Assembly (NCBI GenBank): GCA_038851035.1
Contig: JAWCLH010000004.1
Coordinates: 1-64,000, forward strand
Length of the DNA: 64,000 nucleotides
From: Thermoplasmata archaeon
GTDB lineage: Archaea > Thermoplasmatota > DTKX01 > VGTL01
Direction of reading: 5' to 3'
Below the pieces are notes generated by a model. The model did not search any database and had not been told where the DNA came from. It saw only the letters and a program-made list of their open reading frames with translations. Below, in pieces: positions 11,640 to 38,148 of the stretch. Within the stretch, counting starts at the first letter, position 1, and each line of letters starts with the position of its first letter. The position numbers and the translations under genes were made by a program.

Positions 11640-12104
11640 ATGGGGGACGAGTCACGCCTGCTCAGGGCGGCGGAGAGGGTCGTCAGGGGGGACAGGGTCA
11701 GGTGGCTCCTCGGAAAAAGGAAGGAGCTGGTCGAGAGGGGGAACGTCTTCGGAAAGACGCTCACTGACGCGCGCTTCGACCACCTGATGGACGAGATAGG
11801 CAGGGTGGAGCTGGAGCGCGAGCTGATAATGATGGAGCTGGAGGGCGGCGAGAGGACGATACCCGAGCTGGTCCGCGCGACCGGGCTGGACAGGAGCGCG
11901 GTCCACAGGCACCTTCTGATGCTGCTCAGGGCGCGCAGGGTCGAGACGAGGGGCGAGAGGGCCGGGCTCCAGCTCTTCGGCACCGGCCCCGTGCAGGCGA
12001 CCGGTGCAGGTGCGGGCGGGCCGGCCGTCAGCGGCGCCGGGGCCGCGGGGGGCGGAGAGGGGGAGAGCCTTCGGGGAGGGGCGCGCGCGGGGTCTCAGCG
12101 ATGA
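11640..12104 (+). CDS. winged-helix regulator of the hdr cluster
   Basis: Putative DNA-binding protein, 154 aa. A helical segment (LVERGNVFGKTLTDARFDHL) is followed by a winged helix-turn-helix with TIPELVRATGLDRSAVHRHL as helix-turn-helix and LLRARRVETRG as wing. The last 45 residues are Gly/Ala-rich. The same two-part arrangement is fused to MvhD in the gene at 31094 (LVEKGNVYGERLKREEMDQT, then SVKALAGATSLPAHEVLRHI), so the two are homologous. As first gene before hdrA it is well placed to control the cluster; the signal it senses is unknown, and it has no cysteines. Confidence 0.75.
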   Translation: MGDESRLLRAAERVVRGDRVRWLLGKRKELVERGNVFGKTLTDARFDHLMDEIGRVELERELIMMELEGGERTIPELVRATGLDRSAVHRHLLMLLRARRVETRGERAGLQLFGTGPVQATGAGAGGPAVSGAGAAGGGEGESLRGGARAGSQR

Positions 12105-12188
12105 GAGGGGCGGAGAGTGCGGATGTGAGAATTCGGGAAGGAGGCGAGCGCGGGGCCAGGGTCGGGAGCGAGACGGAGGGAGGATGCT

Positions 12189-14222
12189 TTGGGGGATAGG
12201 GGGGGGGCCGGGGGGCCAAGGATAGGGGTCTTCGTCTGCCATTGCGGCTCCAACATCGGTGGCACGGTGGACTGCCCGGCCGTGGCCGAGTATGCTACCA
12301 CGCTGGAGAACGTGGTCGTGGCCAGGGCCAACATCTACACCTGCTCCACCGTCGGTCAGGAAGAAATAAAGAAGCAGATAAGGGAGCACGGTCTGGACAG
12401 AATCGTGGTCGCCTCCTGCACTCCGCGGCTCCACGAGGCGACATTCAAGAGGGTGGGGGAGGAGGCTGGCCTGAATCCGTACATGGTCCACATGGTCAAC
12501 CTGCGCGAGCAGTGCTCCTGGGTCCACCAGGGCGATAAAGAGAGGGCGACGGAGAAGGCGAAGGAGCTCGTCAGGATGGGCGTGGCGAGGGCGAGGATGC
12601 TCGAGCCCCTCACCGCGCAGGAGCTCGGGGTCGAGAGGAGGGTTCTGGTCATTGGGGGGGGCATCGCGGGCATCCAGGCCTCTCTCGACCTCGCCGCGCA
12701 GGGATTGGAGGTCGTGCTCGTCGAGAGGCTCCCGAGCATCGGTGGAAGGATGGCCCAGCTCGACAAGACCTTTCCCACGGGCGACTGCGCGATATGCGTT
12801 CTGGCGCCGAAGATGGTCGAGGTGCTGCACACCCCGGGCATCCGGCTGATGACCTACTCCGAGGTCAGGGAGGTCGCCGGCCACGCGGGCAGCTTCGACG
12901 TCAGGATAGAGAGGAAACCGCGCTACGTTGACGAGAGCAAATGCGTCGGCTGCGGCATCTGCGCCGAGAATTGCCCCGGCGGCGCCCCGAGCGAGTTCGA
13001 CATGGGCATCGGGAGGAGGAAGGCGATCTACGTCCCCTTCCCGCAGGCCGCGCCCCTGAAGTACACGATAGACCCCGCGAGCTGCATACACTTCAAAACG
13101 GGCAAGTGCGGCCTCTGCAGGAAGAACTGCCCGACGGGCGCCATCGACTTCGAAATGAAGCCGCAGGAGGTAAGGGTCAGGGTGGGCGCGATCATAGTCG
13201 CCACGGGTTTCGACCCCTACACCCCCCACGTCCACGGCTACTGGGGCTACAGGGAGTTCGCAAACGTCATCACGGCCCTCGAGCTGGAGAGGATGATAAA
13301 CGCCTCTGGCCCGACGAGGGGGGAGGTGCGCAGACCCTCGGACGGGGCGGCGCCGAAGCGGGTGGCGTTCATCCAGTGCGTGGGCTCGCGCAACTGGAAG
13401 GCGACCTCGAACAAGTACTGCTCCCGCGTCTGCTGCATGTACACGATGAAGCTCGCCCAGCTCCTGAAGGAGCACTACCAGGACATCAGCACCTCGGTCT
13501 ACTACATTGACATCCGGGCCTTCGGGAAGGGCTTCGAGGAGTTCTACCACAGGGTCAGGTCAATGGCCGGTGTCGAGTACATCCGGGGCAGGCCCGCTCG
13601 CCTGACCGAGGACCCGCGGACGAAGAACATCACCATCCGCGCCGAGGAGACCCTGCTGAACAAAATCACCGAGAGGGAGTTCGACCTTGTGGTCCTCTCG
13701 ATCGGAATGGTACCCTCCGAAGGGACGGAGGCGCTGGGCCGGATGCTCGGAATTCCGAGGAGCCCGGACGGCTTCTTCCAAGAGGTCCATCCGAAGCTCA
13801 GGCCCGTGGACACCTCGCGCGACGGGGTCTTCATATGCGGCTGCGCCCAGGGGCCCAAGGACATCCCGGACACCGTTGCGCAGGCCAAGGCCGCGGCCTC
13901 GAGCGCGGCGGCGATGCTGGCGCGCGGGAAGGTAATCCTCGAGCCCACCACGGCGGAGGTGGACGAGGCGCTGTGCGAGGGCTGCGGGCTCTGCGCCAGC
14001 CTTTGCCCCTACGGCGCGCCCTCGCTCGTGGAGACCGGGAGCGGCAAAAAGGCGAGAATTCAGAAAGCCCTCTGCCACGGCTGTGGCACCTGCGCCGCGG
14101 CCTGCCCGCGCCTGGCGATAACCGTCAGGGGCTTCAGCGACGAGCAGCTCGAGAGCGAGATGGCTGCGGCGCTCCCGGGCGAGGGGGAGAAAGTGGAGAA
14201 CGGAAGGGGGGTGGGAGGATAG
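12189..14222 (+). CDS. hdrA: heterodisulfide reductase subunit A (HdrA)
   Basis: FAD/iron-sulfur subunit that carries the bifurcating flavin in Hdr complexes; 677 aa, usual length. Order: N-terminal Cys domain (C17, C19, C52, C77, C109), FAD-binding Rossmann GGGIAG at 156-161, the QLDKTFPTGDC segment, an inserted ferredoxin domain (C252-C262 and C307-C314), the FIQCVGSR flavoprotein motif, and two C-terminal [4Fe-4S] motifs CEGCGLCASLCP and CHGCGTCAAACP. TTG at 12189 is used, with GGGAGG a few nt upstream. Followed directly by hdrC and hdrB, it forms the only plain HdrACB set in single-gene form in this block. Confidence 0.93.
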   Translation: MGDRGGAGGPRIGVFVCHCGSNIGGTVDCPAVAEYATTLENVVVARANIYTCSTVGQEEIKKQIREHGLDRIVVASCTPRLHEATFKRVGEEAGLNPYMVHMVNLREQCSWVHQGDKERATEKAKELVRMGVARARMLEPLTAQELGVERRVLVIGGGIAGIQASLDLAAQGLEVVLVERLPSIGGRMAQLDKTFPTGDCAICVLAPKMVEVLHTPGIRLMTYSEVREVAGHAGSFDVRIERKPRYVDESKCVGCGICAENCPGGAPSEFDMGIGRRKAIYVPFPQAAPLKYTIDPASCIHFKTGKCGLCRKNCPTGAIDFEMKPQEVRVRVGAIIVATGFDPYTPHVHGYWGYREFANVITALELERMINASGPTRGEVRRPSDGAAPKRVAFIQCVGSRNWKATSNKYCSRVCCMYTMKLAQLLKEHYQDISTSVYYIDIRAFGKGFEEFYHRVRSMAGVEYIRGRPARLTEDPRTKNITIRAEETLLNKITEREFDLVVLSIGMVPSEGTEALGRMLGIPRSPDGFFQEVHPKLRPVDTSRDGVFICGCAQGPKDIPDTVAQAKAAASSAAAMLARGKVILEPTTAEVDEALCEGCGLCASLCPYGAPSLVETGSGKKARIQKALCHGCGTCAAACPRLAITVRGFSDEQLESEMAAALPGEGEKVENGRGVGG

Positions 14223-14305
14223 AGAAGAGCGAGAAGAGGGCGACACAGGGGGGCAGGGCCGAGGGGGGGAGCGGGAACAGCGCCGGGGCGGAGGAGGCCC
14301 TGATC

Positions 14306-14830
14306 GTGGAGGACAGCGTCCTGACGGGTCAGGAGCACGACCCCGACTTCGTCTCGCAGATAATCAGGTACGGCGGGCACGACGTCCAGACCTGCCTCCA
14401 GTGCGGGAACTGCACGGGCGTCTGCCCCGTCTCGCTCAAGACGCCCTACAAGACCCGGAACCTGATAAAGCTCTGCCAGTACGGCTACAAAAAAATATTT
14501 TTCTCGATACCCTGGATCTGCGCGGGGTGCCACCGCTGCTACGAGCACTGCCCCGCGGACATCGACCCCGCGGAGGTGTTCGTCGCGATCCGGCACATAC
14601 AGGTCAGGGAGAGGGGCGTGCCCCGCTGGATAAGGGACAACGTCGGCCTGATTCTCAGGAATGGGTTCGGCGCGGTGCCGAGCGACGATATAAGGAGGTA
14701 CAGGGAGAGGCAGGGCCTCGAGCCCCTGCCCAACACCCTGCCGGGCTACAGGACTGCGCTCGAGGAGCTCGCGACGATATTCCGCCGGACGGGGTTCGAC
14801 AGAATTCTAGGTCTGGAGGAGAAGAAATGA
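14306..14830 (+). CDS. hdrC: heterodisulfide reductase subunit C (HdrC)
   Basis: Iron-sulfur subunit that relays electrons from HdrA to HdrB; 174 aa. It carries two [4Fe-4S] motifs, CLQCGNCTGVCP and CAGCHRCYEHCP, the classic HdrC pattern. The frame stays open far upstream, over hdrA, but the GTG at 14306 (VEDSVLTGQEHDPDF) is chosen because GGAGG lies about 10 nt before it and HdrC proteins begin close to this point. The C-terminal 60 residues are helical. The adjacent genes are hdrA before and hdrB 79 nt after. Confidence 0.88.
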   Translation: MEDSVLTGQEHDPDFVSQIIRYGGHDVQTCLQCGNCTGVCPVSLKTPYKTRNLIKLCQYGYKKIFFSIPWICAGCHRCYEHCPADIDPAEVFVAIRHIQVRERGVPRWIRDNVGLILRNGFGAVPSDDIRRYRERQGLEPLPNTLPGYRTALEELATIFRRTGFDRILGLEEKK

Positions 14831-14909: not shown

Positions 14910-15836
14910 ATGAGGTACGCGCTTTTCTCTGGCTGCACGATACCCAACAGGTTCCCGGGTGTGGAGTACGCGACGAGGGAGATTCTCGGCGAGAGATACC
15001 TGGGCGCGGAGCTCCTGGATGTGAAGGAGTTCACCTGCTGCCCCGCGCTCCCCACATTCTACTCGTCCGACAGGTTCACCTGGCTCACCGTGGCGGCCCG
15101 GAACCTGACGGTCGTCCAGGATCTGGGCGCGGACCTGGTGACGATATGCAACGGCTGCTTCTCTTCTCTCCTCAAGGCCTCGGAGGAGCTTCAGAACGTT
15201 CTGAAGTGCAACATGGTCAACAACGTCCTGGCCGACATAGGGAGGCAGTACAGGGGCAGGCTGGTCCGCACCGAGGGCCACAGGAACTTCTACGAGCCCG
15301 TGCGGGTCAGGCACATCATCGAGGTCCTGTACAATGACTTCGGGAGAAAGAGGATAGAGGCGCTCGTGAGGAACCCGATGAGGGGCGTGAGGGCGGCCGT
15401 TCACTACGGCTGCCACTACCTGAGGCCGACCATCCGCACCACGATAGACGACCCCGCGAACCCCGTGATGCTGGACGAGCTCGTCGAGGCGACCGGGGCG
15501 GAGAGCGTGAGGTACCCGGAGAAGCTCGCCTGCTGCGGCGCCGGGGGAGGGGTCAGGCTGCAGGTGCCGCGGCTCGCCAACGCCATAACAAAGGACAAGC
15601 TCGACAGCATGCTGGCGGCGGGGGCCGAGTGCATCGTAACAGGGTGCCCCTACTGCCTCTTCCAGTTCGACCATGCCCAGAGGGAGCTGAGAATCTCGTC
15701 GCTTCCCGTGCTCCACATCTCCGAGCTGCTGGCCCTGGCCTTCGGCATAGACCCCGACAGGCTTGGCTTCGAGTGGCACTTCGTGACCGTGCGGCCCTTC
15801 CTCAAGAGGCTCTATCCGTCGGTGGTGGAGGGATGA
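14910..15836 (+). CDS. hdrB: heterodisulfide reductase subunit B (HdrB)
   Basis: Catalytic subunit; in methanogens it cleaves CoM-S-S-CoB on two non-cubane [4Fe-4S] clusters. Both CCG domains look complete in this 308-aa protein: GCTIPNR with FTCCPALP and CNGC in the first, and GCHYLRP with CCGAGGG and CPYC in the second. All cysteines expected for both clusters are present. With no methyl-CoM reductase genes in view, the substrate may be another disulfide or a different acceptor. A 76-nt gap separates it from the first CBS gene. Confidence 0.92.
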   Translation: MRYALFSGCTIPNRFPGVEYATREILGERYLGAELLDVKEFTCCPALPTFYSSDRFTWLTVAARNLTVVQDLGADLVTICNGCFSSLLKASEELQNVLKCNMVNNVLADIGRQYRGRLVRTEGHRNFYEPVRVRHIIEVLYNDFGRKRIEALVRNPMRGVRAAVHYGCHYLRPTIRTTIDDPANPVMLDELVEATGAESVRYPEKLACCGAGGGVRLQVPRLANAITKDKLDSMLAAGAECIVTGCPYCLFQFDHAQRELRISSLPVLHISELLALAFGIDPDRLGFEWHFVTVRPFLKRLYPSVVEG

Positions 15837-15912: not shown

Positions 15913-16464
15913 ATGACGCTGAGAGATCTGGAGCTGAAGGGGGATTATAAGACCATCAGTCCGGACGCGAGCGCCGCGGAGGCGATAGCGCTCATGGCGG
16001 AGTACAGGGTCCCCCTTCTCCTTGTGGAGAAGACCGGCCCGGGGGACACGGAGGGCGTCATTACCCGGCGCGACATCATCGGCAAGCTGATCGCCGAGGG
16101 CCTGGACCCGGAGAGGGTCACAGCGCGCGAGCTCGCCTCCAAGCCCCTGCTCATCCTGAACAACGTCGAGGTCGCCATCGAGTGGGTGGCGGCCGCAATG
16201 GCCCAGTGGGACGTCTCCTGCCTGGCCATATTCGACAGGGGGGAGTTCAGGGGCTTCGTCACGGACCGGGACGTTCTCCGGGGGTGGCTCAGGAGGCTGG
16301 AGGGCGGGGGGAAGGCGCAGGCCGGTGCTGAAATTGGAGCGGGAGTCGGGGGCGAGGGCGCCGGCGGCGGAGCCGGAGGTCGCCGGGAGGGGCGGGAGGC
16401 TGTCCCGGGCGCGGGAGGCCGCGACGCGGGGGCGCGGGATGCGCGGGAGGGCGGTGCGCAATGA
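15913..16464 (+). CDS. CBS-domain protein 1
   Basis: Pair of CBS motifs (a Bateman module) in residues 1-130, shown by TISPDASAAEAIALMAEYRV and, in the second repeat, the FRGFVTDRDVLRG ending; then about 50 residues of Gly/Ala/Arg-rich tail. CBS pairs usually bind AMP, ATP or SAM and report energy state. The start has GGAGGGGGAG just upstream. Its stop overlaps the next gene's ATG (ATGA), and both CBS genes sit inside the hdr block, so they may tune an Hdr complex; no binding partner can be read from the sequence. Confidence 0.8.
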   Translation: MTLRDLELKGDYKTISPDASAAEAIALMAEYRVPLLLVEKTGPGDTEGVITRRDIIGKLIAEGLDPERVTARELASKPLLILNNVEVAIEWVAAAMAQWDVSCLAIFDRGEFRGFVTDRDVLRGWLRRLEGGGKAQAGAEIGAGVGGEGAGGGAGGRREGREAVPGAGGRDAGARDAREGGAQ

Positions 16465-16895
16465 TTCCTCTACAGAACGCTATAAAGAAGTTTAGAATCG
16501 ACACGATTCCGGCGGAGGCGACGGCGCTCGACGCCCTGAGAAAGATGGCGGCGTCCGACTTCGCCCCGCTCCTCGTTCCCAGAAAGGGCCGCAACGACGC
16601 CTATGGCATTGTGACCAGGGGGGACCTTCTGAAGAAGGTCTTCGCAGCCGGGAGGGACGCGAAGCAGGTCCGGGTCTCGGAGATAATGAGCAAGCCCCTG
16701 ATCACCGTGAACGATCTCACGATGGACCTCAGGTGGGCCGCCAGGCTGATGACGCGCTGCGGGGTATCGGCCCTGGCGGTGCTGGACAGGGGAGAGTTCT
16801 ACGGCTTCATCACCGACGCCTGCATTATAGAGGAATATTTCAACGAGATGAGGAGGGAGAAGGTCCACAGGACGGGGGAGATGCTGTCGTGCTAG
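16461..16895 (+). CDS. CBS-domain protein 2
   Basis: Second Bateman module, 144 aa, without the low-complexity tail of its neighbour. The two CBS repeats end in YGIVTRGDLLKKV and FYGFITDACIIEEY. Similar order and length to the first gene suggest a tandem duplication, and the two could pair as a heterodimer. It stops with TAG, uncommon in this window. The next gene, an hdrA variant, starts 68 nt later. Confidence 0.82.
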   Translation: MIPLQNAIKKFRIDTIPAEATALDALRKMAASDFAPLLVPRKGRNDAYGIVTRGDLLKKVFAAGRDAKQVRVSEIMSKPLITVNDLTMDLRWAARLMTRCGVSALAVLDRGEFYGFITDACIIEEYFNEMRREKVHRTGEMLSC

Positions 16896-16962: not shown

Positions 16963-18792
16963 GTGACCACTGGGGCGCTGGGAGCGCCGGCGGGGCGGAA
17001 GGAGGGTGGCGGGGCGAGGGTCGCGGTCTTCCTCTGCACCTGCAAGAGCGAGCTGGGGAAACACCTCGACATGGAGAGGCTGGCCCCAGCGATATCAGAG
17101 CTCCCCGGAGTGGCGATGGTGAGGGTCCAGGAGGCCCTCTGCGTCCCGGAGGGCCAGAAGGAGATGGTCGAGGCCTGGAAAGCGTCGGGGGCGGACAGGG
17201 TCGTTGTCGGGGCCTGCACGCCGAACATACAGGGCCTGATAATGCGCGACGCCCTCGAGCGCGCCGGGCTGAACAGGTACCTCTACGAGCAGGTCAACAT
17301 ACGCGAGCTCTGCGGCTGGGTCCACGGCGACAGGGCGGTCGCGACGGAGAAGGCCCTGAGGCTCCTGAAAGCCGCCGTCGCGCGGTCCGCGGAGCTCGAG
17401 CCGCTCCAGGACGTCGAGCTCGCGGTGGTTCCCGAGGCGCTCGTCGTTGGAGGAGGGGTTGCGGGGATGGAGGCGGCGCTTTGCATCGCAGAGAGGGGCT
17501 TCAGGGTCCATTTGGTCGAGAGGAGCGACAGACTCGGTGGGAGGGCCTACAGCCTGAGCGTGACCTTCCCCACCCACAACTGCGGAATCTGCTGCATGCA
17601 GTACTGCAAGGAGTGCGTGCTCACGCCCAAGGTGGAGAGCGTTCTCCAGAACCCCCGAGTCAATGTCTACCTGTGTAGCGAGGTCGAGTCCATCGAGGGC
17701 GGCTTCGGGGACAGGAGGATCAGGCTCAGGACGCCCGGGGGCCCCGTGGAGCTGAGGGTCGGGACGATAGTCGTCGCCTGCGGCTCGGACGTTTTCGACG
17801 CCCGGAGAATTCCCGAGTACGGCTACGGCGTCTACAAAGACGTGGTCACGACCATGGACCTGGAGAAGATGCTCGCCCGGGAGAGGGAGTTCCTAGGGAG
17901 GCTCGTCAGGCCCTCGACGGGCGAGGTGCCGCGCAGGGTGAACTTCATCCAGTGCGTCGGCTCCAGGGACAGGGTGAAGGGGAACCTCCACTGCTCCCTC
18001 GTCTGCTGCACCTACGCGATAGGACAGGCGAGGGAGATCCGGAAGCTCCACCCGCAGACCGAGGTCTTCGTTCACTACATTGACCTCAGGGGACCCTACA
18101 GGGGGTTCGAGGAGTTCTGCGAGCAGGCCAAGGCCGAGGGTGTGGTTTTCGTCCGGGGCCGGGTGTCGGAGGTCAGGGAGACGAAGGAGGGGCTGAGAAT
18201 TCGGTTCGAGGACACCGACCTCGGGAAGGTCCTGGACATGCCAACTGATCTCGTGGTGCTGGCGGTAGGGCAGGAGCCCGCGGCGGGCTCGAAGGAGCTT
18301 GCGAAGCTCCTCCACCTCCAGCTCGACCAGGACGGGTTCATAAAGGATCTCAACCCCAACTTCCCGGCGGAGTACAGGAGGGGGGTCTTCGTGGCGGGCT
18401 GCGCCGAGGGCCCCAAGGGGATAAGGTACTCCATCGAGGACGCCAAGATCGCGGCCTCCGCCGCCGCCGACATGATGGCCGCGGGCAGGATAAGGAAGAC
18501 CCGGGCCATCGCGGTCGTGGACGAGGAGAGGTGCCGGGGCTGCGGGAGGTGCGAGGAGCTCTGCGAGTACGGCGCCGCGAAAGTGGTCGAGAAGGGCGGC
18601 AGGATGGTCTCGGTGCGAGACGAGGCGCGCTGCGAGGGCTGCGGGGCCTGCGCCGCGCAGTGCTGCAGCCGCGCGATTCAGATAAAGCACTTCACGAGGC
18701 CGCAGATGGAGGCGGAGATGAGGGAGCTGCTGGAGAGGGCGGGGTCGAGGGAGAAGGGGGGCGGGGGCCGGGCGGGGGAGGGCGCGGCATGA
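16963..18792 (+). CDS. hdrA: HdrA variant lacking the inserted ferredoxin domain
   Basis: HdrA-family flavoprotein, 609 aa. The N-terminal Cys domain is present (VAVFLCTC, GACTPN), then the FAD motif GGGVAGMEA near residue 163, FIQCVGSRD, and two C-terminal [4Fe-4S] motifs CRGCGRCEELC and CEGCGACAAQCC. In place of the inserted ferredoxin domain of normal HdrA there is only a short Cys-rich strip, NCGICCMQYCKEC, and the segment QLDKTFP is changed to SLSVTFP. The electron path must therefore differ from canonical HdrA. Start GTG 16963. It precedes mvhD and an HdrD-like gene. Confidence 0.88.
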   Translation: MTTGALGAPAGRKEGGGARVAVFLCTCKSELGKHLDMERLAPAISELPGVAMVRVQEALCVPEGQKEMVEAWKASGADRVVVGACTPNIQGLIMRDALERAGLNRYLYEQVNIRELCGWVHGDRAVATEKALRLLKAAVARSAELEPLQDVELAVVPEALVVGGGVAGMEAALCIAERGFRVHLVERSDRLGGRAYSLSVTFPTHNCGICCMQYCKECVLTPKVESVLQNPRVNVYLCSEVESIEGGFGDRRIRLRTPGGPVELRVGTIVVACGSDVFDARRIPEYGYGVYKDVVTTMDLEKMLAREREFLGRLVRPSTGEVPRRVNFIQCVGSRDRVKGNLHCSLVCCTYAIGQAREIRKLHPQTEVFVHYIDLRGPYRGFEEFCEQAKAEGVVFVRGRVSEVRETKEGLRIRFEDTDLGKVLDMPTDLVVLAVGQEPAAGSKELAKLLHLQLDQDGFIKDLNPNFPAEYRRGVFVAGCAEGPKGIRYSIEDAKIAASAAADMMAAGRIRKTRAIAVVDEERCRGCGRCEELCEYGAAKVVEKGGRMVSVRDEARCEGCGACAAQCCSRAIQIKHFTRPQMEAEMRELLERAGSREKGGGGRAGEGAA

Positions 18793-18805: not shown

Positions 18806-19354
18806 ATGAGCGGCGGCGAGGAGACCGGGGGCGCCGGGGCGGGGGCCGGGGGGCCGGGCGCGGCCGGCTTCGAGCCCTCGATAGTGGCCTTCACCTGCGC
18901 CTGGTGCGGCTACCCATCCGCGGTGCTGGCGGGCGTGAACAGAATCGAGTACCCGCCCGGCGTCATGATCATCAGGGTGATGTGCTCCGGGATGGTGGAG
19001 CCGGCCTACATCATGAAGGCCTTCGAGTACGGCGCCGATGGAGTGATCATCGTCGGCTGCCAGATGGACAACTGCCACTACATGGTCGGGAACAAGAGGG
19101 CGGAGGAGAGAGCCGCGATGATGCGCGAGCTGCTCGACCTGCTCGGAATCGGTTCGGCGAGGCTCAGGACGGAGTGGATAAACGCCTCCCAGAGGGTCGA
19201 GTTCGCCAGGGCGATGAACGAGTTCTCGGCGCGGCTGAGGGAGCTGGGGCCCGGCCCGGTTAGCCCTGGATGTAGAGACGGGGGAGTGGAGGATAGTATG
19301 GTGGAGCGGCCGGGGAGGGATGGGGCCCTTGGAGAGAGGTACCTGAATGAGTGA
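18806..19354 (+). CDS. mvhD: MvhD-type iron-sulfur adaptor
   Basis: Delta subunit that links a hydrogenase or dehydrogenase to HdrA through a [2Fe-2S] cluster; 182 aa. The motif order is CAWCGY, VMCSGM, GCQMDNCHY. The first motif differs from the CCNWCSY of the other copies in this window. Gly/Ala-rich residues precede the domain and an extra 38-residue tail follows ELGPG. The stop overlaps the next gene by 8 nt, so MvhD and the HdrD-like protein are probably made together. Confidence 0.85.
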   Translation: MSGGEETGGAGAGAGGPGAAGFEPSIVAFTCAWCGYPSAVLAGVNRIEYPPGVMIIRVMCSGMVEPAYIMKAFEYGADGVIIVGCQMDNCHYMVGNKRAEERAAMMRELLDLLGIGSARLRTEWINASQRVEFARAMNEFSARLRELGPGPVSPGCRDGGVEDSMVERPGRDGALGERYLNE

Positions 19355-25946: not shown

Positions 25947-25964
25947 CAACACAATTTTCCACGA

Positions 25965-25979: not shown

Positions 25980-26022
25980 TAACGGTATTAGCAACATGCC
26001 CGCATGGCGGGTGAGGGGGGAA

Positions 26023-29662: not shown

Positions 29663-30208
29663 TTGCCAGAGGACGTAATCGACGCAAGCGAGCTGGACCC
29701 GGAGTTCAAGTTCGAGATAGCGAGACAGCCGGGCGGGGAGAACATAAAGCTGTGCTTCCAGTGCGGAACTTGCAGCGGAACCTGCCCGGTGAGGGCAATA
29801 AACGACCGCTACAACCCGAGGCGCATCATACGGATGGCACTGCTGGGGATGAGAAAAGAGGTTCTGTGCAGCGACTTCATATGGTTGTGCTCCACTTGCT
29901 ACGCCTGCCACGAGCGCTGCCCCCAGAACGTCCGCATCCCAGAGCTGATGATGGCCATCCGGAACATCGCAATAAAAGAAGGCAACGTACATCCCCTGTA
30001 CAAATCGTACGTTGAGATGCTGGACAAGCACGGTAGACTCCTCGAGGTCGGGGAGTTCGAGAACGAGAAAAGGAGGAAGCTCGGACTGCCCGAGGTGGCC
30101 ACGGACGTCGAGAGGGTGCGCAAGGTGTTCGACGCCACGAGAATTCGCGAAAAGGTTGAGGGGAAGCTGGCTGAGAGGGTTTGCACCACGGGGGAGGGGT
30201 CGAAATGA
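29663..30208 (+). CDS. hdrC: heterodisulfide reductase subunit C (HdrC)
   Basis: 181-aa relay subunit with two [4Fe-4S] motifs, CFQCGTCSGTCP and CSTCYACHERCP, followed by a helical C-terminus. The TTG start at 29663 follows GGAGGGTGATGAA, and the stop overlaps the hdrB ATG (ATGA). It is the second separate HdrC of the block; spacing to the neighbours is tighter than in the first set, consistent with one complex from 26023 to 35429. Confidence 0.9.
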   Translation: MPEDVIDASELDPEFKFEIARQPGGENIKLCFQCGTCSGTCPVRAINDRYNPRRIIRMALLGMRKEVLCSDFIWLCSTCYACHERCPQNVRIPELMMAIRNIAIKEGNVHPLYKSYVEMLDKHGRLLEVGEFENEKRRKLGLPEVATDVERVRKVFDATRIREKVEGKLAERVCTTGEGSK

Positions 30209-31083
30209 AGGACTATGCCCTTTTCCTGGGCTGCACCGTTCCCGTCAGGGCACTCCACTACGAAGCCCCAGCCCGGAAGGTCGCGGAGAAACTGGGAATT
30301 CGGTTCATTGACATCAAGGAGTTCGGGTGCTGCGGGTTCCCGCTGGAGGGCGCGGACCACCTAACACACCTCGTGATGGCCGCCCTGAATCTGGTGGCGG
30401 CAGAGAAGCGTGAGCTCGAGATCGTCACGCTCTGCAGCGCCTGCACCGCCACCCTGACCAAGGCCGACAGAGTGCTCAAAGAAAACGCCCACCTCAGGGA
30501 GGAGGTCAACAAGGCACTGAAGGCCCACGGCGAAGAGTTCAGGGGAAAGACAAGGGTCAGACACTTCGCCCGTGTGCTCCTGGAGGAGGTTGGGCTGGAC
30601 AAACTGAAGGCCTCCGTGACCAACCCATTGACGGGCATCAAAATAGCCTCTCACTACGGCTGCCACTACCTCAAGCCCTCGGAGATATACGACGGCTTCG
30701 ACAGCCCGGAGAGACCCGAGACACTCGACAAACTGGTGGCCGCCACCGGGGCCACTCCCGTTGACTATGAGGACAAGCTCCAGTGCTGCGGCGGCGGAAT
30801 TCTGGGAATCGACGAGATGACGGCATTCAAGATGTCACAACAGAAGCTTACGCACATAAAGGAGGCGGGCGCGGACGCGATGACATTCATCTGCCCCTTC
30901 TGCGCCGTAATGTATGACATCAACCAAAAGGCGATAGAGACCAAGGTTGGGGGCAAGTTCTCCATTCCGGGGCTCTACTACCCGCAGCTGCTCGGCATCG
31001 CGATGGGATTCAGCCCGGCCGAGATGGCCATCAACCTGAATCGCACGCGAGTGACGATAAAATTCCCGGAGCCGAAGGGATAG
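30205..31083 (+). CDS. hdrB: heterodisulfide reductase subunit B (HdrB)
   Basis: 292-aa catalytic-type subunit with both CCG domains complete: LGCTVPVR, GCCGFP and CSAC in the first; GCHYLKPSE, CCGGGILG and CPFC in the second. The ATG at 30205 is preceded by GGGGGAGGGG and overlaps the hdrC stop; the frame is open a little further upstream without a better start. It differs clearly from the copy at 14910, for example in the CCG loop sequences, so the two may handle different substrates. Confidence 0.92.
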   Translation: MKDYALFLGCTVPVRALHYEAPARKVAEKLGIRFIDIKEFGCCGFPLEGADHLTHLVMAALNLVAAEKRELEIVTLCSACTATLTKADRVLKENAHLREEVNKALKAHGEEFRGKTRVRHFARVLLEEVGLDKLKASVTNPLTGIKIASHYGCHYLKPSEIYDGFDSPERPETLDKLVAATGATPVDYEDKLQCCGGGILGIDEMTAFKMSQQKLTHIKEAGADAMTFICPFCAVMYDINQKAIETKVGGKFSIPGLYYPQLLGIAMGFSPAEMAINLNRTRVTIKFPEPKG

Positions 31084-31093
31084 GGGGGAGGCG

Positions 31094-31867
31094 ATGGGGG
31101 ACTTTGAGCCCAAAATACTGGGTTTTCTGTGCAACTGGTGCTCCTACGCCGGAGCCGACCTCGCCGGCGTGAGCAGGATGCAGTATCCCCCCACGCTGCG
31201 CGTCATCAGGGTGATGTGCTCGGGCCGTGTTGACCCTGTTCTCGTGGTCGAGGCGCTTCTTTCCGGAATCGATGGGGTCCTCGTCGCGGGCTGCCACATA
31301 GGCGACTGCCACTATATAGCAGGAAACCATTATACCGAGAAGCGCATGGGTGTTCTGATGGGCCTTCTGGATAAAACCGCGTTCAGGGGCAGGGTCCGGC
31401 TGGAGTGGGTTTCCGCCTCGGAGGGCTCGCGCTTCGCGGAAGTCGTGCGCTCCCTCTCGGAACAGATCTCGGCCCTCGGTCCCAATCCACTCAAGGAGCA
31501 CCCGGAACTCAGGCCGGAGCTGCAGGCGATAAAGGACACAATGGCGAACAAGAGGGTTAGGAACGTGCTAAACAAGTTCCTCCACCTCGTGGAGAAGGGG
31601 AACGTCTATGGGGAGCGGTTGAAGCGGGAGGAAATGGACCAGACAATCGCGGAGGTCGTGAGGGCGGAGCACGCGCGCGCCCTCATCTTCAACCGGGCGC
31701 TCGAGAGACCCATGTCAGTAAAGGCGCTGGCTGGAGCTACCTCCCTCCCCGCCCACGAGGTGCTGAGGCATATCGCTGTGATGAAGAAGAAGGGCCTGGT
31801 CGAGCTCTGCGGGCAGGAGGGGCAGTACCCTCTCTTTGCAGCGGTCAGTCGGGAGAGGGGGGTATAA
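31094..31867 (+). CDS. MvhD fused to a winged-helix domain
   Basis: 257 aa. Residues 1-135 are MvhD (CNWCSYAGADLAG, VMCSGR, GCHIGDCHY). After a helical linker, residues 160-250 form a helical segment plus winged helix homologous to the regulator at 11640: KGNVYGERLKREEMDQT, SVKALAGATSLPAHEVLRHI, then the wing KKKGLVELCGQEGQYPLF. An electron-transfer adaptor and a DNA-binding type fold in one chain suggests redox-linked gene control, or a winged helix re-used for protein contacts. GGGGGGAG precedes the ATG. The stop is 1 nt before the next start. Confidence 0.88.
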   Translation: MGDFEPKILGFLCNWCSYAGADLAGVSRMQYPPTLRVIRVMCSGRVDPVLVVEALLSGIDGVLVAGCHIGDCHYIAGNHYTEKRMGVLMGLLDKTAFRGRVRLEWVSASEGSRFAEVVRSLSEQISALGPNPLKEHPELRPELQAIKDTMANKRVRNVLNKFLHLVEKGNVYGERLKREEMDQTIAEVVRAEHARALIFNRALERPMSVKALAGATSLPAHEVLRHIAVMKKKGLVELCGQEGQYPLFAAVSRERGV

Positions 31868-31868
31868 A

Positions 31869-34800
31869 ATGGCGGGAGTGCCGGAGGGAGAGCGGGGTGG
31901 GGGCGCGACCCCTGGAGGCTCGGGAAACGCTGGAGCACTTGGCGCACCTAGGGATAAGGTAGGTGCGGTGCTAGTGGTCGGGGGAGGAATCGCCGGGATG
32001 CAGGCTTCCCTGGACCTCGCGGACGCGGGCTTCAAGGTATATCTCCTCGACAACAAGCCATCGATAGGCGGCGTGATGGCCCAGCTCGACAAGACTTTCC
32101 CGACCAACGACTGCTCGATGTGCATCATGGCGCCCAAGCTCGTGGGGGTCGGGAGGCACCACAACATAGAGGTTATCACCAACGCTGAGCTCCTCGACGC
32201 TGAGGGGAGCGCTGGCAATTTCAGGGTCAGAATCGCCCGCCACCCGCGCTACATCGACCCTTCTAAATGCACCGGCTGCGGCACCTGCGCCCAGGAGTGC
32301 CCCGTGGAGGCGATCGATGAATACAACGAGGGGATGACCGAAAGGGCCGCGATATCGGTTCGATACCCCCAAGCCGTTCCCCTCGTGTACTCCATAGATA
32401 AAAACAGGTGCATCGGCTGTGGGAGCTGCGAATATGCTTGTAGGGCGAGGGCGATAAGATATGACGACAGAACAAAGGAGGAGGCTCTCGACGTCGGCGC
32501 GATCATCCTCTGCCCAGGCTTCGAGGTCTACAGGCCCCGCCCTGGGAACCCCTACGGTTACGGCGTCTTCAAGAATGTCGTGACGAGCATGGAGTTCGAG
32601 AGAATTCTGAGCGCCACCGGCCCCTACGCTGGACATGTGATGAGGCCCTCCGACGGGAAGGAGCCGGAGAGTGTGGCCTTCATCCAGTGCGTAGGGAGCA
32701 GGGACCAGAGGAGCAACCTCTACTGCTCGGCCGTTTGCTGCATGTACGCCACTAAAGAGGCGATAATAGCGCAGGAGCACGCCCGCGGTCTGAGGGCAAC
32801 GATCTTCTTCATGGACATGAGGGCCTTCGGGAAGGAGTTTGACTACTACTACAAGAGGGCTCAGGAAGAGTATGGTATTAGATACGTTCGCTCCCGGGCC
32901 CCCTCTGTTTCCGAGCTCCCGGACGGCGGCCTGAAAATAAAGTACGAAGACGAGAATGGGGAGATGAGGGAGGAGACATTTGACATGGTCGTCCTCTCAG
33001 TCGGTCTTTGCCCGCCCCGGGGCCTCGAGGAGTTGGCGGCCAGGCTCAAGGTCAAACTCAATCAGGACGGTTTTGTCGACACAACCATGGCCTCCCCTCT
33101 CTGCACAAATGTCCCGGGAATATTTGTGTGCGGCGTGGCCCAGTCCCCCAAGGACATCCCGGACACCGTGGCCCAGGCCTCTGGGGCGGCGGCCCTGGCG
33201 GCGAGCGTCATCGCTCCCGCTAGGGGCACTAGGGTCAGTCCGAAGGAGTACCCCCAGGAGCTCGACGTCTCGGGCGAGGAGCCCCGCATCGGGGTCTTCG
33301 TGTGCCACTGCGGTATCAACATCGGCGGCGTCGTTGATGTGCCATCTGTGGTGGAGTACGCAAGAACGCTTCCAAACGTCGTCTATGCGGAGAACAATCT
33401 CTACACCTGCTCTGACGACACCCAGAAGAGAATTAAGGAAAAAATAAAAGAGCACAGGCTGAACAGGGTCGTCGTAGCCTCCTGTACACCAAGAACGCAC
33501 GAGCCGCTCTTCATGGACACCTGCAGGGAGGCGGGGCTGAACCCCTATCTCTTCGAGATGGCGAACATAAGGGACCAGTGCTCCTGGGTCCACATGAATG
33601 AGCCCAAAAAAGCGACAAAGAAGGCCAAGGACCTCGTCCGGATGGCGGTCGCGAAGGCCCGGAAGCACGTACCTTTGAAGAAGGGCACCCTGCCCGTGAA
33701 GCAGTCTGCGCTCGTGGTCGGGGGGGGGCTGGCTGGGATGGCCGCTGCGCACAATCTTGCGGAGCAGGGCTTCGAGGTTCACCTCGTCGAGAGAGAGAAG
33801 GAGCTCGGCGGGAATCTGCGCCGGAGCCGCTTCCTCCTTTCTAAAAAGGACGACCCGAGGGCGATTCTCAAAGAATTTATCGGTAAGGTGACTGGGCACC
33901 CAAGAATAAAGGTGCATCTGGCGACCGAGATAAGGGGACTGGAGGGGTTCATCGGGAACTTCAGGACCACGCTGGGGCCTGCAGAGGGGAGCTCGCACGT
34001 GGAGGAGGTCGTCGAGCACGGGGTCGTCATCGTCGCCACGGGCGGCGTGGAGTATGTGCCGACCGAGTACCACTACGGGAAGGACCCGCGCATAGTGACC
34101 CAGCGGCAGCTCGAGGAGCTGCTGGCCGACGGGAAATTCAAGGGAAAGAATGTGGTGATGATCCAATGTGTCGGCTCGAGGGACGAGAAGAACCCCTCCT
34201 GCTCTAGGATATGCTGCGGCCAGGCCATCAAAAACGCGTTGAAGGTCAGGGAGCTCTCGCCATCAACGAGCGTTTATGTGCTATACAAGGACATAAGGAC
34301 ATACGGGTTCAGGGAGGAATACTATCGCGAGGCGTCTGAGAAGGGCGTGGTATTCCTGAGGTGGGACGACAGCGCGAAACCGGAGGTGACTCTAGGGAAG
34401 GAGCTCAGGGTGAGGGTCAGGGACCCACTGCTGGGCAGGGACATGTCCATCCCTGCCGACTGGCTCGTACTCAGCGCGGCCGTCAGGCCGGCACCAACCA
34501 ACCCCCGCATCTCCGAGCTTCTGAAGGTCCCTCTGAACCGCGATGGCTTTTTCCTCGAGGCCCACATGAAGCTAAGGCCTGTGGACTTCGCTACCGAAGG
34601 GGTTTTCCTTTGCGGGATGGCCCACGGCCCCAAGTTCATTGACGAGGCGCTCTCGCAAGCCTACGGTGCCGCCTCGCGCGCCGCCACCGTTCTCTCACGA
34701 GACACGCTTGAGATCGAGCCAACGATATCCACCGTCATCGATGCCAACTGCGACGGCTGCGCCTACTGCGTAGACCCCTGCCCATTCAAGGCCATCACGC

Positions 34801-34982
34801 TGGTCGAGTACGAGAAGGACGGCCAAACGAAGAAGACGGTGAGGGTGAACGAGGCGCTTTGCAAGGGCTGCGGCTGCTGCATGGCAACCTGCCCGAAGAA
34901 GGGGATTTACGTAAAGAGATTCAGTCTGGAGCAGCTCTCGGACATGGTGGACGCCGCTCTCGAGTCGCCGGAGGTGGAGTGA
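31869..34982 (+). CDS. hdrA: tandem HdrA-HdrA fusion, 1,037 aa
   Basis: Second double HdrA, same architecture as the 20965 gene. Module 1: FAD motif VVGGGIAGMQA (about 37), QLDKTFPTNDC, ferredoxin insertion (CTGCGTCAQECP, CIGCGSCEYACR). Module 2: N-terminal Cys domain (RIGVFVCHCGINIGG, about 473), FAD motif VVGGGLAGMAA (about 617), C-terminal clusters CDGCAYCVDPCP and CKGCGCCMATCP. The inserted ferredoxin here is cleaner than in the first copy. ATG 31869 lies 1 nt after the previous gene; the next gene, mvhD, starts on the base after its stop, so the pair is strongly coupled. Confidence 0.91.
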   Translation: MAGVPEGERGGGATPGGSGNAGALGAPRDKVGAVLVVGGGIAGMQASLDLADAGFKVYLLDNKPSIGGVMAQLDKTFPTNDCSMCIMAPKLVGVGRHHNIEVITNAELLDAEGSAGNFRVRIARHPRYIDPSKCTGCGTCAQECPVEAIDEYNEGMTERAAISVRYPQAVPLVYSIDKNRCIGCGSCEYACRARAIRYDDRTKEEALDVGAIILCPGFEVYRPRPGNPYGYGVFKNVVTSMEFERILSATGPYAGHVMRPSDGKEPESVAFIQCVGSRDQRSNLYCSAVCCMYATKEAIIAQEHARGLRATIFFMDMRAFGKEFDYYYKRAQEEYGIRYVRSRAPSVSELPDGGLKIKYEDENGEMREETFDMVVLSVGLCPPRGLEELAARLKVKLNQDGFVDTTMASPLCTNVPGIFVCGVAQSPKDIPDTVAQASGAAALAASVIAPARGTRVSPKEYPQELDVSGEEPRIGVFVCHCGINIGGVVDVPSVVEYARTLPNVVYAENNLYTCSDDTQKRIKEKIKEHRLNRVVVASCTPRTHEPLFMDTCREAGLNPYLFEMANIRDQCSWVHMNEPKKATKKAKDLVRMAVAKARKHVPLKKGTLPVKQSALVVGGGLAGMAAAHNLAEQGFEVHLVEREKELGGNLRRSRFLLSKKDDPRAILKEFIGKVTGHPRIKVHLATEIRGLEGFIGNFRTTLGPAEGSSHVEEVVEHGVVIVATGGVEYVPTEYHYGKDPRIVTQRQLEELLADGKFKGKNVVMIQCVGSRDEKNPSCSRICCGQAIKNALKVRELSPSTSVYVLYKDIRTYGFREEYYREASEKGVVFLRWDDSAKPEVTLGKELRVRVRDPLLGRDMSIPADWLVLSAAVRPAPTNPRISELLKVPLNRDGFFLEAHMKLRPVDFATEGVFLCGMAHGPKFIDEALSQAYGAASRAATVLSRDTLEIEPTISTVIDANCDGCAYCVDPCPFKAITLVEYEKDGQTKKTVRVNEALCKGCGCCMATCPKKGIYVKRFSLEQLSDMVDAALESPEVE

Positions 34983-35429
34983 ATGGGCGAGGCAGAGGGT
35001 CAGGAAACCGCGAAGGAGAGGCCCTTCGAGCCTTTGATAATCACTTTCTGCTGCAACTGGTGCTCCTACGCCGGCGCGGACCTTGCAGGGACATCGAGAA
35101 TTCAGTATCCGCCGAACATACGAATTATAAGGGTGATGTGCTCCGGTATGGTCCATCCAAATCTGGTGATCGATGCCCTCACCAAGGGCGCCGACGGCGT
35201 CCTGATATGCGGCTGCCATATCGGCGACTGTCACTATCTGGACGGGAACAAAAAGGCGCAGCAGAGGGCCGAGGCCATCAAGCTGATGCTCATGGACCTC
35301 GGGATAGAGGAGGAAAGGTTCAGGCTGGAGTGGGTCTCGGCTTCGGAGGGCCAGCGGTTCGCCGAGGTCGTGAGGGACTTTGTGGAGAAGGTCAGGGCGC
35401 TGGGACCGAGCCCGTACAGGCAGAGATAA
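34983..35429 (+). CDS. mvhD: MvhD-type iron-sulfur adaptor
   Basis: 148-aa adaptor, the last gene of the plus-strand block: CCNWCSYAGADLAG, VMCSGM, GCHIGDCHY. It starts immediately after the stop of the tandem HdrA. Convergent to it, 350 nt away, ends mvhA. As the MvhD nearest the hydrogenase genes it is the best candidate to bind MvhAG, but the other four MvhD modules could compete for the same site. Confidence 0.9.
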   Translation: MGEAEGQETAKERPFEPLIITFCCNWCSYAGADLAGTSRIQYPPNIRIIRVMCSGMVHPNLVIDALTKGADGVLICGCHIGDCHYLDGNKKAQQRAEAIKLMLMDLGIEEERFRLEWVSASEGQRFAEVVRDFVEKVRALGPSPYRQR

Positions 35430-35452
35430 CAGCGCATAGATTTGAGCAGCGC

Positions 35453-35779: not shown

Positions 35780-37231
35780 TCAATTCCTGAAGCTGTCCAG
35801 CAGGACCCCCCTGTGGTCCCTAATGTCCACCTGGACCTGAACCCTCCCGTCGAGGGTGTGGGTGGCGCAGGCGAGGCACGGGTCGTAGGCCCTTATCGCC
35901 ACCTCGATCTCATTGAGAATGGTCTCGTCGTAGTGCCCGTTCTTGATGAGACTTTTAGCCGCCTGCTTGACTGACATGTTGATCGGCCCGTTGTTGTGTG
36001 TGGTCCCCACAATAAGGTTCACTTCCTTGATGAGGCCCTTCTCGTCGGTGGTGTAGTCGTGTATCAGCGTCCCCCTCGGCGCCTCCACGGAGCCTATGCC
36101 TCTGGCGGCTCTGACAGTCACAGCCTTCCGGGTGTCGGTGCTGGTGATTTCGGGATCGTCTAGTAGCTGGTTCAGGTGCTCTGCGTTGTAGAGGAGCTCT
36201 ATCAGCCTGGCCCAGTTGTATAGAAGAGTCTGCTGGGCGGGCCTTCCGAATGTCTTCCTGAATTCGTTCAGCTCCGCGTTTGCCAGAGGCGTCCGAATCT
36301 TGTCGCAGACGTTTATCCGGGCCAGAGTGTTGGTCCTGTACATTCCGCCTGGGTTGTCGGGGTCCAAGGAGTAGGGGCCGAGCTCCGGAGCGTAGGGGAA
36401 CTTCAGGTAGCTCCAAGGCTCTACGTGCTCTTTGATGTGTTTGTCATAATCCGTGACCGGGAACTCCTTTATATCCCCGCCGGCGCTCATCAGCCTGATT
36501 TTCCCGTCGTAGAGGTCGAGGGCCCCCTCCTTGTCCACAGTGCCCATGAAGCCCGTCCTGATGACGCCCAGAGTCTTCACGAGGTCGATATATTTCGGGA
36601 ATATATTCTCCTTGGCGTTCTTGATGGAGAACTGGGCGATGTCCAGCAGCTCCCTCCCCCACTCCTTGAGCTTCTCCCTCTCTGTAGAGCTCAGGGGCTT
36701 GCTGAAGCCGCCCGGCGTCGCGGCGACGGGATGAATCGACCGCCCGCCGATTATCTCGACCGCCTTGTTGGCGTGGAGGCGCGCCATGGCCACCTTGGTC
36801 GCGACATCCGGCATCTTCTTGATTATCCCGAAAATGTTCCTCTCGCCCACGGGGGCTCCGGGGCCCATGATAAAGTCGGGGGCAGCGAGGAAGTAGAAGT
36901 GCAGGAGATGCTCTTCGACGTATGCAAAGGCGTTGAGCAGCTCGCGCAGCTTCCTTGCAGCGGGCGGGATGTCCACGCCGAGCACTGCGTCCCCCGCCTT
37001 GGCGGATGCGAGGTGGTGCGAGACCGGGCAGACGCCGCAGATGCTCGTTGTTATACGCGGCATCTCCTCGACTGGTCTGCCCCTGCAAAACTCCTCAAAT
37101 CCGCGGAGAAGGGTTATGTGGAACTTTGCGTCGTCCACATTGCCCTCTGCATTCAGGTTTATCGTCACTTTGGCGTGGCCCTCGATTCTCGTTATCGGCT
37201 GTATGGTAATGGTCTTCTGCATCTCAATCAC
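35780..37231 (-). CDS. mvhA: [NiFe]-hydrogenase large subunit, MvhA type (group 3c)
   Basis: Catalytic subunit that splits H2 at the Ni-Fe site; 483 aa. The four metal-binding cysteines are present: SICGVCPVSHH near residue 65 and DPCLACATH near the end. After that His a 25-residue tail remains (ending LLDSFRN), the sort of extension removed during maturation; a matching protease gene lies at 38370. GTG 37231 overlaps the mvhG stop; ATG 37222, three codons later with GAGGTG upstream, is an equally good start. RITRIEGHAK-type N-terminus (PITRIEGHAKVTINL) is typical. Group 3c by its Hdr-linked context. Confidence 0.93.
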   Translation of the reverse strand: MIEMQKTITIQPITRIEGHAKVTINLNAEGNVDDAKFHITLLRGFEEFCRGRPVEEMPRITTSICGVCPVSHHLASAKAGDAVLGVDIPPAARKLRELLNAFAYVEEHLLHFYFLAAPDFIMGPGAPVGERNIFGIIKKMPDVATKVAMARLHANKAVEIIGGRSIHPVAATPGGFSKPLSSTEREKLKEWGRELLDIAQFSIKNAKENIFPKYIDLVKTLGVIRTGFMGTVDKEGALDLYDGKIRLMSAGGDIKEFPVTDYDKHIKEHVEPWSYLKFPYAPELGPYSLDPDNPGGMYRTNTLARINVCDKIRTPLANAELNEFRKTFGRPAQQTLLYNWARLIELLYNAEHLNQLLDDPEITSTDTRKAVTVRAARGIGSVEAPRGTLIHDYTTDEKGLIKEVNLIVGTTHNNGPINMSVKQAAKSLIKNGHYDETILNEIEVAIRAYDPCLACATHTLDGRVQVQVDIRDHRGVLLDSFRN

Positions 37232-38148
37232 CTCTTTGGAAGGGGTCTCAGGTTATTGTGCGCTCCAATGTACCTGTTGAAGTGGGCCATCCTGTCCTCG
37301 ATGAGCTTCGGGTCCAGTCCTATCGAGGACAGAGCGCCCATCATGTCCACCATGGGTTTCGCGCCTGCCCTGATCGGCCCGAAACACCCGCGACATGGCA
37401 TGTTGGCCTTGATGCACCTAGGCACTTTGTCCTCTCCCCCGCAGCCCGTCTTCGTGGCGGGACCGTTGCATAGAATTCCTTGCTCGTTGAAGCAGCGCAT
37501 CTCGCTCAGCGGCTTTGTGTAGTCCCTATCGGGGTTCTGGAGGGGCCTCTTGAGGTTTACCTGGGCCTTCTTCTCCCTCTTCGTCGGGCAGTCATCACAG
37601 ACGCTCCTCTCGGGCAAGGACCAGGGCTTGCCCTGCAGGAGGTGCGTGAGCGCGTTCGCGATGACTTCGGGCGAGGGAGGGCAGCCCGGTATCTGCATAT
37701 CAACCTTGACGACCTCGTCAACGGCATAGACGCGGTCAGTTAGGGGTGGTATGTCCTTGCCGGGCATGACCCCCTTCTCCGTCGTCGGGGTGTTGTACAC
37801 GGTGTTCATTATCTGGTCCCGGGTGGACAAATTCGCGAGGGCTGGAATTCCACCGTGGACCGCGCACGCACCCAGCGTGATGAGGGTCTTCACGTTCTTC
37901 CTCAGCTCCTGGGCGATGTGCCTGTCCTCCTCCGTCCTGATGCCACCTGTGATGATGCCCACATCGGCGCTTGCGACTTCGAGTCTCTCCTTCTCTCCCT
38001 TCTGCCCGAACCACTTTCTGTCCATCAGCACTTGGCAGTGGACGAAGTCTAGCTGGGGCAGCAGCTTCAAAAGGGTCTCGCCCATGTCCAGCACCGATAC
38101 CTCGCAACCCGTGCACACGGCAAAGTTCTCAATGGCTATTGTCGGCAT
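37228..38148 (-). CDS. mvhG: [NiFe]-hydrogenase small subunit, MvhG type
   Basis: 306-aa subunit with three iron-sulfur clusters that takes electrons from MvhA toward MvhD. Ligand motifs: FAVCTGCEVS near the start, GACAVHGG, IPGCPPSPE, and C-terminal CNGPATKTGCGG with CIKANMPCRGCFGP. No signal peptide, so the enzyme is cytoplasmic. GGTGAGG stands eight nt before the ATG, and a TATA box lies at 38210-38201. Gene order mvhG-mvhA without mvhD next to it is unusual; the mvhD genes are on the other strand. Confidence 0.93.
   Translation of the reverse strand: MPTIAIENFAVCTGCEVSVLDMGETLLKLLPQLDFVHCQVLMDRKWFGQKGEKERLEVASADVGIITGGIRTEEDRHIAQELRKNVKTLITLGACAVHGGIPALANLSTRDQIMNTVYNTPTTEKGVMPGKDIPPLTDRVYAVDEVVKVDMQIPGCPPSPEVIANALTHLLQGKPWSLPERSVCDDCPTKREKKAQVNLKRPLQNPDRDYTKPLSEMRCFNEQGILCNGPATKTGCGGEDKVPRCIKANMPCRGCFGPIRAGAKPMVDMMGALSSIGLDPKLIEDRMAHFNRYIGAHNNLRPLPKR

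Follow-up and report, generated by a model that had tools for sequence, protein, structure and literature searches.

A putative hydrogenase-linked array of HdrA complexes in an apparently non-methanogenic Thermoplasmatota archaeon

The heterodisulfide reductase subunit HdrA is known from several architectures. In the MvhADG-HdrABC complex of Methanothermococcus thermolithotrophicus (PDB 5ODC) there is one of each of six subunit types. Anaerobic methanotrophic (ANME) archaea and methanogens also have type II (fused) and tandem heterodimeric HdrAs, such as HdrA3/4 and HdrA5/6 (Chadwick 2022, PMC9012536), and the type II A3 occurs in clusters that add type I HdrA and HdrD (Lyu 2025, PMC12054007). 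Most descriptions of these fused and tandem forms come from archaea that metabolise methane and alkanes, in which type II HdrA is still without biochemical study (PMC12054007). Here, we analyse a locus of the same design that lies next to a [NiFe] hydrogenase in a Thermoplasmata archaeon (assembly GCA_038851035.1; 2.69 Mb, 50 contigs, 99% complete). The window, that is, the whole stretch of 64,000 nucleotides analysed, is the first 64 kb of contig C4 (JAWCLH010000004.1).

Twenty consecutive plus-strand genes (11640-35429, about 24 kb) encode between them eight HdrA modules in six proteins, five MvhD domains, two pairs of HdrC and HdrB, two HdrD-like proteins, two CBS-domain proteins, a winged-helix protein and a four-Cys protein. 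Convergent mvhA and mvhG come next, followed by hydrogenase maturation genes. An initial annotation made from the sequence had listed the parts of the plus-strand run and the convergent hydrogenase pair, and all are present where it placed them; it counted nineteen plus-strand genes instead of twenty, and its ‘regulator’ is the winged-helix (HTH_5) protein. HdrC1 is easily overlooked because a spurious open reading frame (14401-14913) overlaps it in another frame. The anatomy of the locus, taken alone, is close to certain. Many neighbouring genes overlap or are separated by a few bases. AT-rich, TATA-like stretches occur in the block at 11501-11560, 25941-26006 and 38170-38240 only, that is, ahead of 11640 and 26023 and upstream of mvhG, so we read what had been presented as a single 24-kb block as two plus-strand operons, A (11640-25946) and B (26023-35429), with mvhGA as a separate minus-strand unit. 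Rfam and tRNA scans of the window gave no matches. The genes follow in order; G001 is the nearest genome, from the same family.

11640..12104 (+): winged-helix protein (HTH_5/ArsR-like; Pfam HTH_5, E=1e-6), first gene of operon A; G001 orthologue 62% identical, in the same place
12189..14222 (+): HdrA1, canonical and full-length, with N-domain, Cys197, and inserted and C-terminal ferredoxin domains; best PDB match 5odc_A (E=3.7e-262); all cluster Cys and K409/E356 kept
14300..14830 (+; start approximate): HdrC1; TIGR03290, E=8.5e-31; G001 orthologue 81% identical
14910..15836 (+): HdrB1; TIGR03288, E=1e-91, 307 bits (under the 345-bit cut-off); two complete CCG motifs
15913..16464 (+): CBS-domain protein 1 (PF00571)
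16461..16895 (+): CBS-domain protein 2 (PF00571)
16963..18792 (+): HdrA2; N-domain and C-terminal ferredoxin domain, no inserted ferredoxin domain; Cys-rich insert at Cys197; Gly for K409
18806..19354 (+): MvhD1 (PF02662, E=4.7e-47)
19347..20528 (+): HdrD1, HdrC-HdrB type (PF02754); second CCG motif complete, first ends CPEG
20525..20965 (+): MvhD2 (PF02662, E=2.9e-58)
20965..24270 (+): HdrA3-HdrA4 fused pair (type II HdrA) with complementary domains; 1-base overlap with MvhD2; modelled protein starts at the Met of MESAGERAPG
24267..25946 (+): MvhD3-HdrD2 fusion (PF02662 and PF02754); its two parts match separate G001 genes
25941..26006 (+): AT-rich, TATA-like putative promoter separating operons A and B; the block has three such AT-rich stretches
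26023..26271 (+): small four-Cys protein, motif ELSCx4Cx2CTYPNCQRY; no Pfam family
26303..27625 (+): HdrA5, first half of a split pair; Cys197 and inserted ferredoxin domain, no N-domain or C-terminal ferredoxin domain; own clade in the tree
27622..29658 (+): HdrA6, which completes the split pair; N-domain and C-terminal ferredoxin domain, no Cys197 or inserted ferredoxin domain
29663..30208 (+): HdrC2 (TIGR03290, E=1.6e-36)
30202..31083 (+): HdrB2; PDB HdrB matches, E=2e-69; two complete CCG motifs
31094..31867 (+): MvhD4 fused to an ArsR-like winged-helix domain (PF02662)
31866..34982 (+): HdrA7-HdrA8 fused pair (type II HdrA), assigned from the module table; top PDB match 5odc_A
34983..35429 (+): MvhD5 (PF02662), likely partner of MvhAG
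35780..37231 (-): MvhA, [NiFe]-hydrogenase large subunit (PF00374); CGVC...DPCLAC ligands, C-terminal extension beyond the ligand motif
37228..38148 (-): MvhG, hydrogenase small subunit (PF01058)

A further small open reading frame (35442-35714) has low third-position GC and is probably not coding.

The HdrA modules were aligned to 5odc_A and tabulated for domains, cluster cysteines, Cys197, E356 and K409. HdrA3, A5 and A7 carry Cys197 and an inserted ferredoxin domain, and A4, A6 and A8 carry the N-terminal domain and the C-terminal ferredoxin domain; the two sets are exact complements. The eight modules are therefore not eight enzymes, since six of them are the halves of three complementary heterodimers (HdrA3-4 and HdrA7-8 fused, HdrA5/6 split). 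The initial annotation had taken them as repeats of a complex with one of each subunit; that view gives way to a known design (PMC9012536, PMC12054007). E356 is present in all eight modules, although in A4, A6 and A8 the alignment crosses a gapped region, and K409, the bifurcation Lys, is missing only in HdrA2. Thus, the hallmarks of type II or heterodimeric HdrA are found together: paired thioredoxin reductase (TrxR)-type modules, complementary losses, and K409/E356 in both halves. Most cluster and Cys197 cysteines are invariant in a 49-sequence alignment of HdrA7-8, and an AlphaFold2 model built with the 48 homologues (mean pLDDT 88.6, pTM 0.90) packs the two halves together, with 5odc_A as top PDB match. 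A tree of the A3/A5/A7-type modules pairs those of the window with their respective positional counterparts in G001 and places the split HdrA5 in a clade with HdrA5 of other Thermoplasmatota and of a Methanosarcinales metagenome-assembled genome (L112).

HdrA2 stands apart. It is probably a non-bifurcating relay, because it has no inserted ferredoxin domain, carries a Cys-rich insert at Cys197 and has K409 replaced by Gly, a change common to the orthologues with a readable motif. CCTYAIGQA and the Cys-rich insert are conserved in orthologues. The same clade, with Gly for K409 and the insert at Cys197, also occurs at L046, L143, L152 and L162. This leaves four predicted bifurcation-competent units (HdrA1, HdrA3-4, HdrA5/6 and HdrA7-8), with HdrA2 as a fifth. 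With the modules paired in this way, the five MvhDs are matched by an equal number of C-terminal ferredoxin domains, and the four HdrB-type acceptors by as many inserted ferredoxin domains. HdrB1 and HdrB2 have both CCG motifs complete, and HdrD1 and HdrD2 have one complete motif each.

On balance, we favour reading the locus as an array of soluble bifurcating (or confurcating) HdrA complexes linked to H2, working in either direction, in a non-methanogenic Thermoplasmatota archaeon. From the gene and domain content we infer complex formation, the direction of flow, the role of each MvhD, the acceptor and any stacking. In a paired unit, one half would receive electrons from MvhD at its C-terminal ferredoxin domain and pass them to flavin adenine dinucleotide (FAD). 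Low-potential electrons would then move through the N-domain cluster, to which the other half contributes Cys197, to that half’s inserted ferredoxin domain and on to ferredoxin, while high-potential electrons would exit via HdrC-HdrB or HdrD. MvhAG would deliver electrons from H2 mainly via MvhD5, and the remaining MvhDs would link other donors or adjacent units.

Earlier papers already describe the modules, how they pair, and clusters that include additional HdrA and HdrD. Like the ANME and methanogen clusters, the window has complementary Cys197/N-domain and C-terminal ferredoxin partners, with K409/E356 in both halves, alongside HdrBC, MvhD, HdrD and extra type I HdrA; the Methanosarcinales genome has the order HdrCB-HdrA-MvhD-HdrD-HdrA5-HdrA6-HdrCB-HdrA7-8. 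Those clusters, however, have FdhB or molybdopterin oxidoreductase partners and lie in mcr-bearing genomes, whereas the partner here is mvhAG, with no match to molybdopterin oxidoreductase or mcr, and the window gathers two fused pairs and one split pair, HdrA1, HdrA2 and five MvhDs. All six subunit types of 5ODC are represented (HdrA1, HdrB1/B2, HdrC1/C2, MvhD5, MvhA and MvhG), yet in place of one of each the window has four HdrA units, as well as HdrA2, and five MvhDs, with no mcr or ComA match in the genome. D. autotrophicum HRM2 (Desulfobacterium; PMC2702500) likewise has many HdrA/HdrL proteins with MvhD partners, one locus with mvhAG, but it distributes these units among nine loci, each with roughly one HdrA. 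The MetVF-HdrBCA-MvhD systems of Moorella and Sporomusa (PMC9430772, PMC9012536) share an HdrA with two TrxR-type modules plus MvhD, although their partner is MetVF and not a hydrogenase. Finally, the sections of PMC11237513 on HdrA-HdrA-MvhD fusions of Thor-, Loki- and TACK archaea report several copies per genome, counted per assembly, and mention no clustered array with mvhAG; the host also has one such fusion, on contig C20.

The open-licence literature searched yielded no hydrogenase-linked array in archaea lacking mcr, nor the small Cys protein or the MvhD-winged-helix fusion, a weak kind of absence. In this locus and its syntenic relatives, the same HdrA design is tied to a [NiFe] hydrogenase in archaea without methane machinery, so the expansion of HdrA need not concern CoM-S-S-CoB, the heterodisulfide of coenzymes M and B.

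Conservation argues that the cluster is real. In G001, an independent assembly, contig C12 has the same order gene for gene, and one additional cassette (HdrD, HdrA5', HdrA6') there separates the counterparts of MvhD3 and HdrD2, which are fused in the window; cassettes evidently come and go. The ratio of non-synonymous to synonymous substitution (dN/dS) against G001 is 0.10-0.35 (HdrD2, 65% identical to its counterpart, is left out of this range), paralogous modules are at most 55% identical, frames are open and metal ligands intact. These comparisons support a multi-Hdr cluster that is conserved, linked to a hydrogenase and held under purifying selection.

Nor is the locus unique, an idea that the survey of other genomes rejects, since MvhD-rich genomes and similar arrays recur among the sampled Thermoplasmatota. 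The core HdrD, small Cys protein, HdrA5, HdrA6, MvhD-winged helix, HdrA7-8, MvhD and mvhAG is also found in G176, G346 and G390, spanning other Thermoplasmatota families, and the complete chromosome CP070739.1 has a tandem array of four fused HdrAs and five MvhDs beside mvhGA. At least eight MvhD domains occur in 14 of 390 sampled Thermoplasmatota genomes (at most 10 candidates per genome scored), and five or six lie within 16-30 kb in G392, G079, G346 and G001. Smaller arrays of this kind were seen in Bathyarchaeota, Bacillota and Cloacimonadota, among others.

Two less familiar parts recur as well, and neither has a described function in the open-licence literature searched. The small Cys protein, which has no Pfam match, is conserved beside HdrD and split HdrA5/A6 in eight loci; its motif, ELSCx4Cx2CTYP[ND]CQR[YF], is seen in the window and at L050, L051, L054, L055, L060, L164 and L166, sometimes as a tandem double. 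Winged-helix domains occur in the block both as the 11640-12104 protein and as the C-terminal domain of the 31094-31867 MvhD, for which AlphaFold2 gives pLDDT 91 and pTM 0.89, and Foldseek finds 5odc_D for the first part and weak winged-helix matches for the second. Forty similar open reading frames with this ArsR-like fusion were seen at L050-L129, in archaea and bacteria, usually between HdrA genes.

The hydrogenase is assigned to the group 3c type (Mvh/Vhu) from its ligand motifs and closest NCBIfam families, both matches falling below the curated cut-offs: MvhA has the NiFe ligands CGVC and DPCLAC and matches VhuA best (438.8 bits; cut-off 800), and MvhG matches VhuG best (218.4 bits; cut-off 450). 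MvhAG is the sole electron-input enzyme encoded at the locus. With one apparent input and a fixed docking count (5 MvhD, 5 C-terminal ferredoxin domains, 4 inserted ferredoxin domains, 4 HdrB-type units), the proposed idea of double bifurcation becomes testable. The neighbours of mvhAG are maturation genes, identified by Pfam and by TIGR02124 over its cut-off, with hypF recognised from sequence alone.

38370..38948 (+): hydrogenase maturation protease HycI (PF01750)
39055..45817: HypB-like GTPase at 39055, hypF at 39789, hypA at 42881 and hypD at 43544 (all +), and hypE at 44738-45817 (-)

What the host lacks narrows the role of the array. Family searches of the genome gave no PF02249 (mcrA) match, no PF00384 (molybdopterin oxidoreductase) match, and no CdhC or ComA match; the ComA test alone is weak, given that M. 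acetivorans is also without a match. The initial annotation had seen no formate dehydrogenase or mcr gene at the locus, and this extends to the whole genome. Formate dehydrogenase and a CdhC-type acetyl-CoA pathway were thus rejected as partners. With these four families missing, methanogenesis, formate input and an acetyl-CoA pathway via CdhC are unlikely, and with neither mcrA nor ComA, CoM-S-S-CoB is probably not the acceptor.

The initial annotation had also suggested interchangeable or stacked complexes with different acceptors, fed by a common H2-oxidation module. A shared hydrogenase input is plausible in that mvhAG-like genes adjoin related HdrA/MvhD arrays in six genomes (G390, G346, G176, G392, G012 and G011), but the five MvhDs are not alike (43-64%) and fall in different clades. 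MvhD5, with the lowest dN/dS of the block (0.10), is the only one to group with MvhDs adjoining the closest mvhAG genes (those of G392 and G390), so the hydrogenase may feed mainly the MvhD5 entry point.

Several points weigh against an H2-linked array. mvhAG lies on the opposite strand as its own transcription unit, not co-transcribed with the array; the G001 contig ends after MvhD5, so the synteny comparison stops before mvhAG; and a genome search of the kind that the initial annotation had called for turned up PF00374 at two other loci, one a group 3b-like hydrogenase and the other a NuoD-like subunit of complex I. In addition, no gene of the block reveals what HdrB reduces, and the sequence does not fix H2 oxidation over confurcating H2 production.

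It is quite possible, if somewhat short of an even chance, that the block instead holds separate complexes sharing a locus, with only HdrA7-8/MvhD5 on MvhAG and the others on other dehydrogenases, each MvhD being a donor-specific adapter. The divergence of the MvhDs fits this, as does precedent from M. marburgensis, whose second MvhD homologue, ElpC, joins a different donor to the same Hdr (PMC12350162); on contig C1 of the host, an MvhD adjoins an FrhB/FdhB-like protein in a locus that also encodes a NuoF-like protein. The block itself, however, encodes MvhAG only and no other input enzyme (FdhAB, FrhB or NuoEF). The whole C1 locus (L046, 5119-16234) comprises FrhB/FdhB-like, MvhD, HdrA2-type, fused HdrA, NuoF-like and NuoE-like parts, HdrB and HdrC, and is probably NAD(P)H- or F420-linked.

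Rather unlikely, in our view, is a confurcating role with the complexes running in reverse, in which reduced ferredoxin and a thiol or other higher-potential donor are oxidised and MvhAG vents H2 during amino- or fatty-acid fermentation. Confurcation has been proposed for ANME Hdr clusters (PMC9012536), and Thermoplasmatota with mvh and hdr have been described as amino-acid and fatty-acid degraders (PMC12220078). In the host, an acyl-CoA dehydrogenase lies beside a lone HdrA on contig C38; on C44, an HdrA pair has a thioesterase and an Oxidored_FMN protein nearby. Its ATP-citrate lyase and 2-oxoacid oxidoreductase set nevertheless fits reductive flux, and direction is not something that sequence reveals.

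That set is on contig C20 (L044, 1796-18445): aconitase, isocitrate dehydrogenase, both ATP-citrate lyase subunits and 2-oxoacid:ferredoxin oxidoreductase (Kor) subunits. Directly beside this reductive tricarboxylic acid (TCA)-type set are an HdrA-HdrA-MvhD fusion, a TfrA-like fumarate reductase flavoprotein, an Fe-S protein, HdrB and HdrC. The C20 MvhD domain is 80% identical to MvhD5, and every other MvhD pair of the genome is at most 64% identical. In G009 (L145 6061-19796 and L146), tandem fused HdrA and MvhD genes directly adjoin a Kor-Tfr-FeS-HdrB-HdrC-HdrAA set that is 65-77% identical. Reductive TCA genes with predicted H2 oxidation have already been reported in Thermoplasmatota (PMC9802188), and Ca. 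Penumbrarchaeia have mvh, hdr and partial reductive TCA genes (PMC12220078), a class in which the host is not placed here. That Hdr arrays drive a reductive TCA cycle is a lead only.

A more ambitious version strikes us as doubtful: the array as a single supercomplex, in which distinct MvhDs wire several HdrA heterodimers serially from one hydrogenase and yield ferredoxin of lower potential than one step allows, with the same hydrogenase, via the C20 MvhD, feeding a 2-oxoacid oxidoreductase/fumarate reductase-like complex for the reductive TCA cycle.

An assembly artefact or decayed recent duplicates, the two outcomes that the initial annotation had named as fatal to it, are hardly credible: chimaeric joins in a 50-contig assembly could in principle raise the paralogue count, but conserved synteny in an independent assembly, similar arrays in a complete chromosome, dN/dS of the order given above and paralogues so divergent, with open frames and intact ligands, exclude both.

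Elsewhere in the window, 46-4704 (-) holds Type I-G (I-U/Dpsyc) CRISPR-Cas genes (Cas7g, Cas8g and Cas3g), with GC at third codon positions of 0.48-0.58 where computed, below the rest of the window, and 48661-53238 (+) encodes a protein of 1525 aa that combines a peptidase M6 domain with Ig/fn3-like repeats.

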